Assembly (NCBI GenBank): GCA_963556695.1
Contig: CAUWAG010000020.1
Coordinates: forward strand, 1,426,001-1,490,000
Source of the DNA: Anthostomella pinea
Taxonomy: Eukaryota > Ascomycota > Sordariomycetes > Xylariales > Xylariaceae
Direction of reading: 5' to 3'
DNA: 64,000 nucleotides
Shown in pieces: positions 15,957-44,805 of this stretch (positions are counted from its first letter, which is position 1; each line of letters begins with the position of its first letter). The translations under genes were made by a program, and so were the position numbers. The notes below the pieces were generated by a model. That model was given only the letters and a program-made list of their open reading frames with translations. It was not told the origin of the DNA and did not search any database.

Positions 15957-18500
15957 TAGGCGGGAGAGAAAGGTGAGGTAGGCGGGCGAGTGGTCAACAG
16001 AGGAATCTGCAGAAACGCGTCGCAAAGGCAGTCCAATTACCTTGGGTGCAACTGACTGGAATGGTTACCAGATCACTGCTCTTCCATTGCGAGCCTGCTG
16101 CACAGTTGCATGTGGCGAGGAGGAGGTGGAGGAAACATTTGGATTGCACTTACTGGTTGGGGTGGTGCAGGAGGGAGAGGTAAAGGTTGCAGCAGCTGCA
16201 CTTGATGGTTGAGATGGGTCAGGTATTTATATGCAAATAATAATGATCTCCGCAGAAAAAAGCATTGGGCACCTGGTGCACAATTTTCAGACACCAGGCA
16301 TCTATGAGGTTTGAAGAAGACCTGTGTTCGCACTGCATCTGACGACGGGAGAGCCTCTAAGGATGCCAAGGGGTCCAGGGAGGAGGAACTACTATCGGCA
16401 TGGTAAGGCAACATTCTAGGTTAAAATTTGTACATGAGACTATCAACAAGCACATTTGAAGTGCTGGTCTGCTGGTCATCCCAGCCGTACTGCACGTATA
16501 ATGCTTGCTATGGCAATCCGAAGAACCGCATACATCAGGACGAAATATAAGTTATAGTTTGATTGAGATGCCACCAACGGCAACAGCCCGATGGATGCGT
16601 CACTGCTCTCCCACCGTGCAGGCAGCAAGATATCAGTTTCATGAGATGACAGCCGCAATCAGACAGTGAAATAAAATCTTCGGCTGGGGAGTACACTACC
16701 AAGTACCAGCGTTGAGACTCGCGTCTCCGATACCTTCTGTGTCACGGGTATCGTGAAGGCATACACTGAACCCCCAGAAGTGGCCAGACACCCCTTAAGC
16801 AAGTACCTGGAATTGTGAAAAACATTGAAGCATCCTGGCACAAGCATATACAATGATGAATGAAATGTAGGTTCTCATGGTAGGGCGCTTATTCGAGACA
16901 ATATATGCCTGTAGTTTGGATTGCATCAGAGTGCAGTGATGGAGACTTGCAATGGTTGATCGTAGGCGTAGGTAGGTTTCTCCCCGCTTGCATTGGTCGA
17001 CGTACTGCTTGCCTCTGAGTCTGATCCCAAACCAATTGTCATCCCTTTAAATCATCGTGCCCGGTTTGTCTTCCCAAGATGTATGTTGGTCCTTCATTCC
17101 CTCCACCGAACAGTGCGTGCGGCCAGAACATTGCTAAATCTAGACAGCGATACGGAACAGGAACAGATTCAGTCACCCCCAGCGGATCAAATCGATACCC
17201 ACACGTGACTAGCCGAGTTCCATGTCTGGTATCGAAAAGACCGACAATGGGTAAGACGCAGACTGAGGTGGCCAGCTTCGGTGCGACTGAGGATGACCAC
17301 ACAACAACCGGACAACAACCACATAGTGGATCTTCTTGTGAGCTGAAAGCCATGATGTAATCTTATCATGGAATATGAAATTGAGACTGAGATCTCGAGG
17401 TTGGACCAACCAATGTTCTTATGAATGGATGAGTCGCGCTCTCACCTAGGCTACTCACGGGTTTAGCCACAAACTGAGATCAGAATCAGATTGAGGATCA
17501 AAAAACCTGATTCACGCTTTCGCTTTGGATCCCATCGCCCCGAATGAAACCCATGAGAGTTTCTCTGTTCCTCTAGTAGCGCGCGTGGCCCAGTGTGGCG
17601 ATGAAGGGAGGCGATGTCACTCATTGGCGCCTCATGGCGATCACAGATTCACATGGCTTCAGCCAGTGCTTGATTAGTGACACACAAGTGGAAGTGGCTC
17701 TAGCAATATCAGTGCAAGAGGAACCTTGAGAATATGCATCCAACCAAACTCATATGTACTATACGGCACCCACGCGGAAGATTGACGCGCTGGTCCTGGC
17801 AGACCAGATTGTCAGATTGGAGGTTGAGTACGGTTCTGGAATCTACAGCTCCAGCCTCAAAGCTGTGGCGTCACGCTTTGAGAGCTGTGGCTGACGGAGA
17901 TGCACCACTTCAGAAATGAGTAACGGTTTGCGGTGCAACAGTCACCAATGTTGTAGCCCGGCTAGTCACATCAGATGTTGCGCCGTCACACCGTTACAGA
18001 TCCAAATCCTTGGATGGCCCTCCTCATTTGGTAGGCAGTCGACCAACGGACAAAGGTAACGAGTGTGAAATGGATGCACCAAGTTCAAACATCCCATGTG
18101 CACACATGGGACCTGTTTCTTTAACGTAGACGTGGTATTACTAACCCATCCATTGCGGTCTACGGTCGGGGTCTTCAAGAAGGGGCCTTTATGGAAGAGT
18201 GCTGCAAGTCATGGAGACGCATAGGAAAGAGCACGTCATTTCCGACGCTAGAGATTCACAAGCCGAGCAGATCTGCTAGAAGACAAACAGTCACTCTGAT
18301 GATAGACTTTGCTTGTTTATGACGGCTTTGGTGGCTGAACCTACATGTAGAGGGAGTTCTATTATTAGAACGCGGGATTTCCCGCCCCGGTGCCCTGTCA
18401 TGCCGGTGGATGCTGAGGGGTATCTCCACAGCCCTAACCGCCCAGATGTGACGTGTGTATATGGAGCATCGTAGCAAACTTTTTTCCCATCAGCTGATAC
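15957..18500. other. Intergenic, no supported gene
   Basis: About 2.5 kb with only short ORFs. A 45-codon stretch ending near 17897 (MYYTAPTRKIDALVLADQ...) reads like protein but has no start context, partner exon or recognised family. Nothing else is supported. Confidence 0.4.
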
Positions 18501-18627
18501 AGCATCTTGGCGCAGCGGAAGCGCGGTAAGCATTCAATGTCTCTCTTCGCATACAAGATTATCCACTAACACAACAGAAGCCGGGCTCATAACCCGGAGG
18601 TCCTCAGATCGAAACTGAGAGATGCTA
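18501..18627 (+). tRNA. Initiator tRNA-Met (CAT) with a 55-nt intron between positions 26 and 27
   Basis: Exons 18501-18525 and 18581-18627 together make a 72-nt initiator tRNA. The acceptor is AGCATCT with AGATGCT, all seven pairs perfect. The D arm is GCGC-AGCGGAA-GCGC. The anticodon arm is CCGGG-CTCATAA-CCCGG, with anticodon CAT. The variable loop is AGGTC, and the T arm is CTCAG-ATCGAAA-CTGAG. The AUCGAAA T loop, the GC-rich anticodon stem and the A1-U72 pair are hallmarks of eukaryotic initiators. The A box (TGGCGCAGCGG) and B box (GATCGAAAC) are intact and an oligo-T run follows. The insert is not at the usual 37/38 site. Every stem is intact, which argues for a functional gene rather than a pseudogene. 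Confidence 0.88.
18526..18580 (+). other. Intron-like insert inside the initiator tRNA gene
   Basis: It begins GTAAGC, contains CACTAAC near its 3' side and ends ACAACAGAAG, a NAGNAG 3' site. These are spliceosomal-type signals. Only the distal AG (18580) restores an exact 72-nt tRNA; the proximal AG (18577) would leave three extra bases. Confidence 0.75.
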
Positions 18628-18634
18628 TCTCACA

Positions 18635-18639
18635 TTTTT
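18635..18639 (+). terminator. RNA polymerase III oligo-T terminator
   Basis: Five T residues lie eight bases after the last tRNA base, as expected for a Pol III transcription unit. Confidence 0.75.
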
Positions 18640-33894: not shown

Positions 33895-34090
33895 CATCCA
33901 TCCGACGCCCATCCGACACATGCCAGATTGTTGACAGAACCACCTGACACACATCCATCCGACAAGCCCATCCCACACGACTATCCCACACGCCCATCCG
34001 ACACGTGCCCATCTGACACGTCCATCCGACACGTCCATCCGACACGCCCATATCCAACACAAGTACATCCGACACGAGTACATTCGACAA
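33895..34090 (+). repeat. Degenerate minisatellite in the copia leader
   Basis: About a dozen imperfect units related to CCCATCCGACACG occur in tandem up to the gag start codon. Confidence 0.85.
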
Positions 34091-34091
34091 G

Positions 34092-37000
34092 ATGGCCTCC
34101 AGCAATGGCAACAGCAAAATCCAAGTCGCTCAAGACCCTGCAGACATTATGAGAGACGAGAAGCTACGATATCTTAGCGACCGCAACCTACATGTCAACC
34201 TTGTCGACCTCATTGATCTTGATCGCATCAAATTTGGAAAACAAGTCGACCTTGAATATGGCGAGGATACCCATTTCAACTCGTACACCTTGTCATGTAT
34301 CGACCGCTACAACAATGCTAAGACGCCCGTCCCCTTTGAGATTCACGAGACATTCCAGATGGACTTTGAGAACTGGACAAAGACAGACTTCGAGAAGGTT
34401 GAGCGCACCATACGAGGCATCTTCAAGAAATGCCTCAACTCCAAAGGAATCTATCTAGGCAAAGCAAACCACTCCATCATAGACGCCCTTGCCAATCTTG
34501 TCACCGCAGAAGACCTCCCAACCTGGGATAAAGTCTTACTTGACAGAATAAGAACTACTTATCCACACCCAAATGTCTGGAAAATTGTTGATGTCTGCAT
34601 GGCTACACAGACTGATGCTCCCAATACTGATACCCCAGATTTGATTGATTCTCATGATGACATCCCTTCTGTTACCACTGAACATGCATCACAAAAGACT
34701 ACCCCAGATCTAAATCTAGCCCAGTACCGGAATCCCTCACCACCGCAAATCCCAACGGCATATGCAACCGGCAACTTCATGCCCGATCCTCGGCACATCG
34801 CTATCACACTAGACCCTGGCTTCGGAACATACCAGCAGCACAACCAATGGCTACAGAATCAACCACCTGATCCATATACCCAGATTCCCCCTATCCCAGT
34901 GCCCAACGAGGACCTAGCTCCTGGAACAATCGTAACATTTGCCAAGATCTGGAAAGAGAAGAACTGCTACTCAGGACGACCCTACAATATTCTGGATGAC
35001 AAGATACGCTACTTTCTAAACACATGTTCTACCATTGGCATCAAACCTGGCCAGTTCCACGCAGTATTCCCCCAAGTCCTCACTGGCACAGCTCAAGAAT
35101 ACTTCATGCACCATATCAGCCGTCACTCGATGTTCTCAGACATGTACAACCGTCTCAAGGCACATTTTGACACGGAAGTCAACAAGACTCAATATCATCG
35201 CGATTGGTCAGCAATCACCTATATCAACATGAAGGCACGACCTGAGAACGCTGGCAAGACCGGCATAAAGATCCTTGAGGCACTCCTTGGCAAACTGCAA
35301 CTCTGTCAACGTGCCCTTGGCCCTTCGTACCTAGGCGAGACACAGCTAATTGCAGCTGTGGAACGTGCCTGCCGTGGTATCAAAGAATTTAATTATGCCT
35401 TGTTCACTCCTTTACACACGTTTGAAGCTCTTGCTTCAAACCTCTGATAATCACTCCAGACCTCTGAAGACTCAGCTGACAGCGCCCAGCATACTACCAA
35501 TCAGTACTTTACTAATCGCAAGTTTCACCGGCGGAAAGACAAGCAATACGGTAAACGAGATGGCAACGTTACCAGACGTTGTTACATCTGTAGTGACGCT
35601 GACTGTCGATCGTGGAAGCATTCTCCAGAGGAACAACGGAAATTCAAAGAGAAATGGCGACACGATCAACAATTCCGTGGACGACCGACCACAGGCCCTG
35701 CCTACATCCATTTCCTGGCAGACTACGAGCCAGATCTTGACTCAGACCCTGATGATACGCATGACCAATACGTCATGGATTCCAGAAGCGACAGCAGTGA
35801 CGATGCTGTCCAATATCTCACAGCCACCTTACTTAGCGACCGAGCATTCCAACATTCAATCACTGCCACGGACAACTTGCAAGTTGGATTCGAGTCTGAC
35901 AGTTTCACACTGGATAGATACGCCAGTTCTACATTCCAAGGAATTATACCTGATTCTGGCGCTGCTTCTGTTTCAACAGCCGGCAAGGGTCAGTTCCTAG
36001 CCTTACAGCGCGAGCTACCCTCAGTTTTACTCGATAAATCACGCGTTGGAGAAGCTACAGTTAAATTCGGTGGAGGACAGCCTTTAAATTCCCTCGGCAC
36101 GATCCATGTTGACACCACCATTGGAGACGTAACGTTTCACGTCGTTGACACCCAAACTCCCTTCCTCCTCTGCCTGAAAGACTTCGACAAGCTTGGCGTA
36201 ATATTTGACAATATTACCAATAGGATGATCCGACTGCGAGATGGCAAGTCCATCCCGATCACCTGTAAATGGGGCCACCCCTGGTTCTTCCCCTCAGCAA
36301 TGACAACCGTATCAACCGGTGTGTTCCTGACAGAAGCTGAACTACGACGCGTTCATACCCGATTTGGACACCCTTCTGTCGGCAAGCTTTACAAGCTCCT
36401 GGAGAAATCTGGCAACGAAGCTGATCGAGATGCCATTGCAATGATCAACAAGTTTTGCCATCATTGCCAGATCAAAGGCCCGTCACCACAGCGGTTCAAG
36501 TTTTCCATCAAGAAGGATATTGATTTCAACTACGAAGTCATTGTTGACGTCATGTACTTGGATAGCAAGCCCGTCCTTCACTGCGTTGACGCCGCCACAG
36601 CGTTCCAAGCAGCCCAATTCCTCCCTAACCTGTCTGCCAAGGAGACCTGGGAAGCACTGAAACGATGTTGGATTGACACCTATCTTGGCCCTCCAGATGT
36701 CCTAACGCACGACGCTGGTACCAACTTTGCAGCCACAGAATTCCGAGCTGAAGCCCGATTGCTTGGAATCACCTGTCATTAGATTCCCGTCGAAGCTCAT
36801 TGGTCGATTGGCAAGGTTGAACGGTATCATACCCCCATTCGACGCTCTTACGAGATCATCCGAGCCAAATCATCCGGGATCTCTCGAGAAGCTGCCCTGC
36901 AGATGGCAGTAAAAGCCGTGAACAATACCGCCGGTCCTGATGGCCTTGTACCAACACTCTTGGTCTTTGGAGCCTATCCACGCGTTACAATGGATTCACC

Positions 37001-39161
37001 CCCGTCACAATCGCAACTTCAACGTGCCCAGGCCCAGGCCAAAGCAATGACCGAACTACGTAAGCTTCAAGCCAAGCGCAACGTTCAAAGTGCTCTAAAC
37101 ACAAGGAACGGCCCTGATACAACCCCAACACTGCCTCTCTCTCTTCCCATCGGCAGTGAGGTCCTTATCTATCGCGAAAAAGACAAATATCAAGGCCCGC
37201 ATAAGGTTCTATCGGTAACAGACCGAGAAGTGACCGTTGAGATAGTCAACGGACCAACCCTATTCAACCGCACGCACGTCAAGCCGTACAACCGTCACCC
37301 TGATGCGATTCTCGATACTGACAAGGTCGACAACCACGGTACCCCCGTTCCGTTTGAATATCCTGAACCGACACTCCCCCGTCGTCGCGGCCGCCCTCCA
37401 AAGCTCCCTATACCCATCCAAAGCACGAAGCGACCGCGAGGCCGACCCAGAAAAATATACGTGGTACACATGGCCACTACGACTACAAACGAAGAAGAGA
37501 ACTTCGCTGGCTCCTTCGTCCAGCAAGATGAATATGGCATTTTCCTCTCGCACAAGGAGCGTGCTGACCACGCTCTCGCCCTGAAACTGCGCACTGAAAG
37601 CAAGATCACAGCCCCTGGAGCACCCTTCGAGCAATCCGATGTCCTTAAGATTGAGTCTCTATTTGCCGATGAAGTGCTTGTCCCCATTCTGTTCGACAGC
37701 AAGATTCATAGCGATACCCAACTGTTTAACTCTCGTCTTGTCCGCACTGTTAAAGGTGTCAATGACCGCCCTTACGAGAAGAGCAGACTCGTCGTTCAAG
37801 GATATAACGATCATGAAAAGCACGATATCATGGCCCAAGCTCCGACGATCATGCGATGCAGCCAACGACTGGCAATGGCCCTGACACTGTCTTTACGACG
37901 GCTAGGATGCCTCGCTGCCTCTCGAGACATCACCATGGCCTATACGCAGTCACGACACCCTATGAATTGTCTTGTCCTATGCAAGCTGCCCATTGAACTA
38001 AAGAAGAAGTATCCAGAGGGCATGATTCTTCGCGTCAACAAACCCCTATACGGAATCGCAGAAGCTGAGAATCATTGGTATGACACATACTCCGTACACC
38101 ACAAGGAAAGACTAGAGATGGAGACATCCGTATACGACCCTTGTTTATTCATTACAAAGAAAGGCAACGACTTTGCTATTGCAGCCCTTCAAACTGACGA
38201 CACCTTTGTCATTGGCACTACCGGCTTCTTAGAGAAGGAAGAAGACGAAACGAGGAAAGCGGGCTACAAGACGAAGCCACGAACCCAGTTTGATACTGGT
38301 TCTTCTGGCGACTTCAATGGATACCGCCTAGAATTTCAGACTGAGAGCATGACAGCGACTCAAAAGGGACAAGCTGACAAGCTCGTCCTGATTGACATGA
38401 GTGACAAGGACTACAAGCAGAGATTCGTTGAGCAACGAGCAAGAGGCGCCTACATTGCCTCTATCTGTCAACCAGAAGCCGCATTCGACTATTCTATCAC
38501 AGCCCAAGCCCAAGAACCCTCCGATAAGGACGTCGAGATGCTAAATAAACGCATTCAGTGACAACTAGACAACAAGTCACGTGGACTTCGATTCGTGATG
38601 ACTGATCTGTCTACTGCTAAACTCTTTGTGTTTGTTGATGGATCATTCGTCAATAACAAGGACCTATCATCACAGATCGGATTTGTCATTATCCTCGGGA
38701 GTGAATCATCTGGTAATGGTAAGACATTCACATTTGATCTGACCGGAAACATTGTTCATTGGTCCTCTACCAAATGCAAGAGAGTCACACGGAGCGTTCT
38801 GGCTTCTGAAGTATATGGCATGGTTGCTGGCTATGATTACGGATACGTGATCCACCGTACACTGGCAACTATCTGCCAACGCCTTGAAGTACCTATGATC
38901 CCCCTGATCCTCTGCACGGACTCATACTCGCTATACCAGTGCCTTGTCAAGCTCGGCACTACCAATGAGAAGCGCCTGATGATCGACGTCATGGCGCTCC
39001 GGCAGTCATACGAGAATCATGAGATCACAGAAATCCGATGGATCCATGGTGAAGACAACCCTGCTGACTCGATGACCAAATCGTCTCCAAATAAAGCTCT
39101 TCATAGTCTTGTTTCTAATAACAAGACAACGGTTCGAGTTGAAGGCTGGGTTCAGCGTTGA
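34092..39161 (+). pseudogene. Copia gag-pol polyprotein with four nonsense codons
   Basis: Gag occupies 34092-35444. TGA and TAA follow at 35445-35450. The same frame continues with a Cys/His knuckle-like CYICSDADC, a protease (IIPDSGAAS, catalytic DSG), a GAG-pre-integrase zinc motif (HTRFGHPSVGKL, FCHHC) and the integrase core (VDVMYLD, then THDAGTNF). TAG at 36780-36782 falls between the second Asp and the catalytic Glu of the integrase. Reverse transcriptase follows (SRDITMAYTQS, KPLYGIAEAENHWY) with LQTDDTF in place of YVDD, as in many fungal copia elements. TGA at 38559-38561 separates RNase H (FVFVDGSF, LASEVYGMVAGYD). All domains are otherwise intact and in a single frame, which argues that the stops are recent. 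Without suppression it cannot make full-length Pol. Confidence 0.93.
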
Positions 39162-42450: not shown

Positions 42451-44805
42451 ATGGCCTCTCAAACGAGCAGAAAGCGCAAGGCGATTGAGCTGGAAACCGA
42501 CAAATCAACCGGATCGCCAGATGATCAGGACACCCCCTACCTCTACGATAGACTTCCCGATGGCTTCTGTTGGATTAAAGGTGAGCCCAGAGGGCACCTT
42601 GATAGGTAGACACCGGAACCTAGTTGTTCCGTCCCGATCCAGCCCCCTCTGGCACAAAACTGCCACGGTCGCACGAGGACACTCGAGAGAGACAGAATAC
42701 ACAGACACACTTCAACCTCACGATTGGCTCAAATCTGACAGCTTCATACGGATCTTGATACTTCAGCCTGCAGGCGACTCCGATCCGGATATTCCGCTTT
42801 GCGCCTCATTCGAGGCCCACTCTCTGGACGACAAGCCGCGGTACAAGGCAATCTCCTATGCCTGGGACCTCCCGGCTGACGTCGGTCGCATGCTAGACGC
42901 CGACTCGGCTGATGATACTTCGTTTTTGAGCGGCGTTCTCGCTGTTTCCCGCATAAGCTTTATCTCCCCGGCGGTATCCTATGGATCTCGGAATCGCTCA
43001 ATGCCGCATTACGCAGGTTCCGCAATCACATCCAACCTGTGAGGCTATGGGCCGACGCCGTGTGTATCAATCAAGCTGCTTTGGTCGAGCGTAACGCCCA
43101 AGTCACCATGATGGGCAAGATCTATGCCAAGGCAGAAGAGGTTTTGGTCTGGCTTGGGGATGCAGAGCCTGACAGTGCTGCAGCTTTCTGGCTGGCACGC
43201 TACATATTTGATTATGCTGTCCAGCACGACATAGATGACAAAAATTGGGGACTTGGACACCTGCGCGACATCGCGACTCGGACAGCCCAGTTGGACTGTG
43301 GCCTTCATTGCCATTGTTGCTCCGAGTACTTCGCCCCTGAGAACGACAACCTGATGCGTTGTATACGCGCACTTGACTCCTTGTGGTCTCGTCTCTGGTT
43401 CCGCCGTCTTTGGGTCGCACAGGAATACTTACTGGCTACGCAATGCACATTCTTTTGTGGGACTCACCATGCTTCTCGGGAGCAGCTGCGGCATGCCTAC
43501 ATTGTTCACCTCAGAATTGACATTGCGGGTGTCACTGGTCTCCCCCAATCTCACCTGGATCAACTCAATTTGCTCTTTGGATTTGCTAAACCCGCCTTCG
43601 AAACAGGAGACATAGGCACCGTGATCCTTGACGGACTTTGTCACGGTACGTCGGAACCAAGAGACCGCCTTTATGCTATCAAGTCACTGTTTGCCGACCC
43701 TTCTGGGCTTCTAGAAAGGTCGCTACCCACTGATTACTTGGTGCCGACTGAAGTCCTATGGAGCAGATTAACGGTATTCTGGCTTGAACATGACGTCCCT
43801 GAGACACGCTTTGTGGTACTTGCAATTGCAGGAATGCAGCATTGTGGCATCCACCGAAATCTGCCAACATGGACACCAGACTTCCAGACACTAGAGTCCG
43901 CCTTCTGCTTCCGCAAAAGTGCGTACTATATGGTTCCGATTGATAATGAACAATTCATATATAATCCCGTTTTTGAGGTACGAGCAAACATACATAGCGG
44001 GATTCCGGCGGCACCTTCGCACACTCTGGAAGTACGTGGCAATATGATTCCAAGGCTAGTGCAAGAAATTCTTCCGGGGTCGCAGCTTCCTATCAGCGCG
44101 GTGGGGGGCTCGCGGGTTATGGATGACGACATTGTCGCTCATGCTCGATTGAAGCTACTTCCGTGGTATCTCAAGTGCCACGGCTTTGCTTTTGCGGAGG
44201 CCTCTTCCGCACCGTCCGCGGAGGACTTTGGAACACTTCTGCGACATGGATCGACTGCTGGAGGTCTGGCTGACATCTATATCGGCAAAGAGGCATTACG
44301 AGAAGCTGCCAGAGAGTTCTTCGTTATTGGAGAGGTTCCAAATACTCTGGACATGGAGCGGCAGGTTGACCACATGCTCGACAACATTCACCAACGCATT
44401 GACCAACTGTGGGATGATCTCCATCTATACTTGAGAAATTACCTGTATACATACGATATTGACCTCACGCAGATCATGGCCCGCTTCGACGACGACAGTC
44501 TTGGATGGGTACCGCAAGCAACCGAGCCCGGGTATCGCGTCTGTCTGTTCGCTGCCGCACCTTTCCCGTTCATCGTACGGCCGGCTGGAGAGGGACGGTA
44601 CAAGCTGATGGGGGATAGTTACGTTCAGGGTATCATGGATGGTGCATTTTTGATGGACGAAAAATCTTTGCGAGAGTCCTATACAAGAGATCTGGAGGGT
44701 GAGGCCGGGGAGGGAGAGACCGGGATCGCAGACAGCGAAGGTGACTCCCAAGTGGTGGAGGGCGAAAGCGAACAGACAGATGTTGAATGGATATGTTTGA
44801 TATGA
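42451..44805 (+). CDS. HET-domain (heterokaryon incompatibility) protein
   Basis: Fungal HET-domain proteins trigger cell death when unlike nuclei meet. The ATG at 42451 gives MASQTSRKRKAIEL and then YLYDRLPDGFCWIK. A 115-nt intron (42581-42695) joins this to EYTDTLQPHDWL. The HET core follows: RYKAISYAWDLPAD, SESLNAALRRFR, LWADAVCINQ and MGKIYAKAEEVLVWLGDAE. Between AISYAW and SESLNAAL the frame changes. Either a 50-nt weak intron at 42881-42930 is removed, giving 729 residues, or one base is missing in a run of five T at 42923-42927. After the HET core the protein runs about 550 residues without a domain I recognise and ends acidic. Its place at the edge of the repeat block and beside a dead PKS fits a fast-evolving accessory region. 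Confidence 0.82.

Follow-up and report, generated by a model that had tools for sequence, protein, structure and literature searches.

How is an initiator tRNA made from a gene that is split between tRNA positions 26 and 27 by an insert resembling a spliceosomal intron? Introns of nuclear tRNA genes are taught as a class apart, with a dedicated enzyme and one fixed position: they lie at 37/38 and are removed by the tRNA endonuclease, not by the spliceosome. The gene in question belongs to the xylarialean ascomycete Anthostomella pinea (assembly of 53,736,082 bases, or 53.7 Mb, in 16 contigs) and lies within a stretch of 64,000 nucleotides of contig C16, hereafter the window. The initiator tRNA-Met gene was confirmed to single-base level at 18501-18627. 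Joining its exons, 25 and 47 nt long, yields 72 nt, and the 55-nt insert between the D arm and the anticodon stem carries GTAAGC, CACTAAC and CAGAAG, as the first-pass annotation had described (Table 1). With the joined 72 nt, ARAGORN returned tRNA-Met(cat), in which the acceptor, D, anticodon and T stems are all complete and the T loop reads ATCGAAA, a sequence that marks eukaryotic initiator tRNAs; A1:U72, the anticodon CAT, the T-loop residue A54 and the cloverleaf are likewise those of a eukaryotic initiator. The two-exon structure was thereby borne out, and the oligo-T terminator claimed for the gene was present as a T5 run. From the unspliced gene, ARAGORN made no call without its intron option and miscalled a tRNA-SeC with it. 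No tRNA was found in the window by default ARAGORN, and Rfam reported none in the window or at either of the two initiator gene loci considered below.

Table 1 Coordinates of the initiator tRNA-Met gene and its associated signals in the window
Feature	Position	Strand	Remarks
TATA-like upstream element TATATGGA	18458..18465	+	at -43; putative function
Exon 1: acceptor 5' strand, D arm, G26, A box	18501..18525	+	25-mer identical in the C4 gene
55-nt spliceosome-type intron, tRNA 26/27	18526..18580	+	unique in the genome by blastn, E 10
5' splice site GTAAGC	18526..18531	+	hexamer common to the C4 gene
Branch-site motif CACTAAC, presumed branch A 18569	18564..18570	+	ACTAAC in the C4 gene
Proximal CAG, 8 nt past branch A	18575..18577	+	use leaves 3 extra nt (75-nt product)
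Distal AAG, 11 nt past branch A	18578..18580	+	acceptor required for the 72-nt tRNA
Exon 2: anticodon arm CTCATAA, variable loop, T arm ATCGAAA, acceptor 3' strand, A73	18581..18627	+	
T5 run, Pol III terminator-like	18635..18639	+	T6 after the 3' end of the C4 gene

A second initiator gene was located on the minus strand of contig C4 (C4:260136-260316, with exon 1 at 260292-260316), and its joined exons are identical to those of the window gene (72/72). It is also interrupted at 26/27, by a 59-nt insert that is unlike the window insert and contains GTAAGC, ACTAAC and a single TAG acceptor, the latter 11 nt past the branch A and thus at the distance of the window AAG. The element TATATGGA stands at -44. 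The C4 gene has a further insert of 50 nt in the anticodon loop, which we placed at 37/38 because the loop then reads CTCATAA again, as in the window gene. In the predicted fold of the gene, the anticodon CAT pairs with an ATG inside this 50-nt insert. Given the C4 gene minus its 26/27 insert, ARAGORN put the 50-nt intron at 33/34 instead and called a tRNA-Ala; with either placement, the C4 gene needs two removals. Beside this gene we observed a 25-bp tandem repeat and a long inverted repeat (MIR1222, below the Rfam cut-off), at 1677-1775 and 1829-1974 of the extracted sequence, respectively.

Whether all initiator gene copies carry the insert had been proposed as a check, and both copies found do. 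Across the whole assembly, the exon-1 25-mer with up to 3 mismatches gave 2 matches, both exact (control, 1), and a 28-nt pattern running from the T arm to the acceptor, again with up to 3 mismatches, matched only the window and C4 genes (control, 0). A contiguous pattern of anticodon arm plus T loop, which would detect an intact initiator gene with other stems, had the window gene as its 1 match (control, 0), and a blastn search of the assembly with the spliced 72 nt returned no contiguous copy. These three patterns and blastn thus uncovered no uninterrupted initiator gene in the 53.7-Mb assembly, and the insert must therefore be spliced out if the genes are used. Both loci could in principle be pseudogenes, with an intact gene outside the assembly, for example in a gap, as this is a long-read draft (published BUSCO of 97.9-98.1% in the available part of the source). 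However, exons and intron signals remain perfect in both copies, and the three patterns, directed at different gene parts, match nothing else in the assembly; we regard such a hidden gene as highly improbable. The raw reads of the genome are given as ENA PRJEB67537 in the accessible part of the genome paper.

The signals at the 26/27 inserts are those of spliceosomal introns. In both genes the donor GTAAGC agrees with the fungal GT consensus, a CTAAC branch motif follows, and 11 nt separate the branch A from the AG that is needed for a correct tRNA, which is the single TAG in the C4 copy and the distal AG of the tandem CAGAAG in the window copy. It is mainly in these splice signals (GTAAGCAT, ACTAACA and the AG 11 nt past the branch A) that the two inserts are alike, and the similarity of their interiors is not clearly above chance, with 19 of 300 shuffles scoring equally high. 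We then asked of shuffled inserts that they start with GTRNG, end with AG and contain CTRAY 6-36 nt from the end. Only 9 of 500,000 shuffles of the window insert and 38 of 500,000 of the C4 insert qualified, and a chance origin of the splice signals was rejected on these counts. An introner-like mobile intron was rejected as well, because a blastn search of the genome (E 10) found each insert at a single place.

Verified introns of the same genome gave a reference for these signals. Three introns of the Vps35 gene in the window, for which the exon joins reproduce the A. pinea protein, have the same kind of signals, with 17, 13 and 9 nt from branch A to acceptor. The published range for this span in fungal introns is 6-36 nt, as cited in the available text of PMC5832005. 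Ab initio scans for introns, covering 264 kb, were also run: one kept 7 introns without a decoy, and another kept 2 against 1, 0 and 0 with decoy donors. At threshold 4 the scan gave 50 against 44-58 with decoy donors, and at threshold 0 it gave 61 against 48, 63 and 75; filtering of the latter left 22 against 6, 7 and 12, with branch-to-AG distances of 6 to 38 nt. As these scans are noisy, the comparison of signals relies on the three Vps35 introns. Elsewhere in the window we observed retrotransposon-like adjoining open frames (34017-38561), one of which encodes a reverse transcriptase domain (RVT_2) of the kind present in copia elements, and a gene for a HET domain (heterokaryon incompatibility) protein (42916-44805).

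A tRNA endonuclease of unusual specificity might instead cut at 26/27, as happens at ectopic introns in red algae and nucleomorphs, the GT-AG appearance being due to chance. The available passages of PMC3978253 offer some precedent in the atypical tRNA introns of unicellular algae and of the Guillardia theta nucleomorph. Those ectopic introns likewise interrupt the tRNA away from 37/38 and are discussed there as BHB-mediated, many of the Guillardia ones having no defined BHB; unlike the A. pinea inserts, they are described in those passages without spliceosomal signals. The same source, as far as its accessible text goes, says that the eukaryotic tRNA endonuclease co-evolved with position 37/38. 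The C4 gene does carry a probable intron of the canonical kind, namely the 50-nt insert in the anticodon loop, predicted to pair with the anticodon, and this would suit an endonuclease reading. The 26/27 inserts differ from it in their site outside the anticodon loop, in their GT-AG ends and branch site, and in not being loop introns paired with the anticodon. Cloverleaf-enforced folds of the two genes (two sequences) contained no bulge-helix-bulge joining the 26/27 junctions, and BHB splicing at this site was rejected on that basis. Moreover, two different inserts have a common donor, branch motif and terminal AG. Taken with these observations, cutting by the endonuclease at 26/27 appears very unlikely, and spliceosomal introns are the reading that we retain.

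We also examined other small structured RNAs of A. pinea for introns. A search with RF00026 (47 of 2,591 candidates scored) gave at least four U6 matches. The U6 gene from C16:2508026 (1501-1772 of the extracted locus) bears three GT-AG introns, one of 49 nt after ACAGAG, one of 55 nt after GGATGACAC and one of 53 nt after CAAAGA, and Rfam aligns the gene through the first intron as an insertion (39.9 bits, cut-off 44). Among the U6 matches listed, three have no interruption and a more diverged core (C4:1043101, C2:7777208 and C16:2928728); compared with 51 nt of the Rfam consensus, they scored 35, 27 and 22, and the intron-bearing gene scored 42 with exons 1 and 2 joined. An intronless U6 may nevertheless be in use as well, because the best uninterrupted U6-like locus, C4:1043101, passes the Rfam cut-off with 65.5 bits whereas the intron-bearing gene falls below it. 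This locus adjoins a short tandem repeat. Two U3 genes matched RF01846, C2:2094376 with an apparent intron of 108 nt and C14:739964 with one of 80 nt. Both stretches run from GTGAGT to CAG with a branch motif, lie between ACGACAAT and ACTTCAGAG, and are placed just 5' of the RF01846 matches, overlapping these by 4 and 8 nt. Read from the sequence, they are putative GT-AG introns near the 5' end of U3, and we took them as introns in line with what the available text of PMC5832005 documents for U3 of Pezizomycotina.

Such introns have a background in fungi. A passage of PMC5832005, with the citation that it gives, states that fungal U6 genes carry spliceosomal introns. As in the initiator genes, these combine GT-AG ends with a branch site and interrupt a small structured Pol III transcript, but there the host is an snRNA of the splicing machine and here it is a tRNA. 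For U3, the accessible text of the same paper reports interruption of 138 of 310 fungal genes, GT-AG ends in 136 of the introns and RCTRAC in 129 of 138. The two U3 genes found in A. pinea appear likewise interrupted, the host RNA being a snoRNA. The paper stated in 2017, in the part available, that apart from U3 and U6 no small structured RNA was yet known to be interrupted frequently. Spliceosomal introns in small RNAs transcribed by Pol III are already known, and what would be new is one in a tRNA. An incomplete literature search that covered few subscription journals returned no report of a nuclear tRNA gene with a spliceosomal intron; being incomplete, it makes the absence of reports no proof of novelty.

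The two initiator genes may not perform equally. The first-pass annotation had pointed out that the NAGNAG acceptor of the window gene demands the distal AG, and this concern is real for the window copy; the C4 copy, with its single TAG, is unambiguous. One of the verified Vps35 introns skips an AG at 3 nt and uses that at 9 nt, the smallest distance verified here, and for this reason the wrong CAG of the window copy, 8 nt past the branch A, may be used part of the time. The resulting 75-mer was still called tRNA-Met by ARAGORN, with a distorted D arm. Of the two genes, the window copy may then be the weaker. A stronger form of this view holds that the window copy is dead or dying and that only the C4 copy makes initiator tRNA, for which the tandem acceptor with its proximal CAG can be cited. 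Against it, the window exons are unchanged over 72 nt, the T5 run is in place, the TATA-like element is positioned as in the C4 gene, and the AAG lies as far past the branch A as the C4 acceptor does. We consider loss of the window copy unlikely, and it would leave the main claim intact because the C4 copy also has a 26/27 intron.

Further tRNA genes of this kind were sought in the same assembly. A pattern for tRNAs with GT right after position 26 and a TGGC start had 6 matches, 2 of them the initiator genes, with 3 in the control; its TAGC-start version had 2 against 7 in the control. When ARAGORN was run on 600 nt around each of the 6 non-initiator matches, no tRNA was found in 5. At the sixth, an overlapping 84-nt tRNA-Asn(gtt) was called on the minus strand, which may be spurious; the call (about 1431-1514 of the extracted locus) begins inside the pattern match and hence has another register. 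With RF00005 (63 of 2,100 candidates scored), neither initiator gene was among the 66 matches listed. In viral and prokaryotic contigs, exact-pattern scans with the donor had 0 matches, and donor-less scans gave 18 and at least 118 stretches. Of 137 donor-less places examined, the surrounding 250 nt contained CTCATAA or ATCGAAAC in 5 cases and the two together in none. As a separate observation, AT-rich, mitochondrial-looking tRNA clusters with equal spacing are repeated on C1, C2, C9, C13, C15 and C16, and are either nuclear mitochondrial insertions or assembly artefacts.

Judging from sequence features, the window locus is very probably a working nuclear initiator tRNA-Met gene with an ordinary U2-type spliceosomal intron at 26/27. 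As both initiator gene copies found are interrupted, the spliceosome probably has to process a tRNA in this fungus. The suggestion that a Pol III transcript is cut by the spliceosome thereby gains support from the inserts in both genes and from the apparent introns of U6 and U3. In the proposed pathway, Pol III would use the internal A and B boxes to transcribe the pre-tRNA, and the spliceosome would excise the 26/27 intron to leave the exact 72-nt tRNA. For the C4 gene, the tRNA endonuclease and a ligase would remove the separate 37/38 intron, and the tRNA derived from it would thus pass through two splicing machines. The two genes probably go back to one intron gain in an ancestral gene followed by duplication, after which the intron interiors would have drifted while splice signals and exons were kept. 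Reverse splicing, put forward in the first-pass annotation, may have been the route of the gain.

We think it likely that all initiator tRNA of A. pinea depends on a spliceosome for which one U6 gene itself holds three introns, and that one initiator gene uses both machineries. If this is true, the spliceosome can accept tRNA precursors made by Pol III, translation initiation is tied to splicing, and intron gain in a non-coding RNA becomes testable in a culturable fungus. Since both genes escaped Rfam and default ARAGORN, other genomes in which initiator tRNAs seem to be missing may conceal similar cases.
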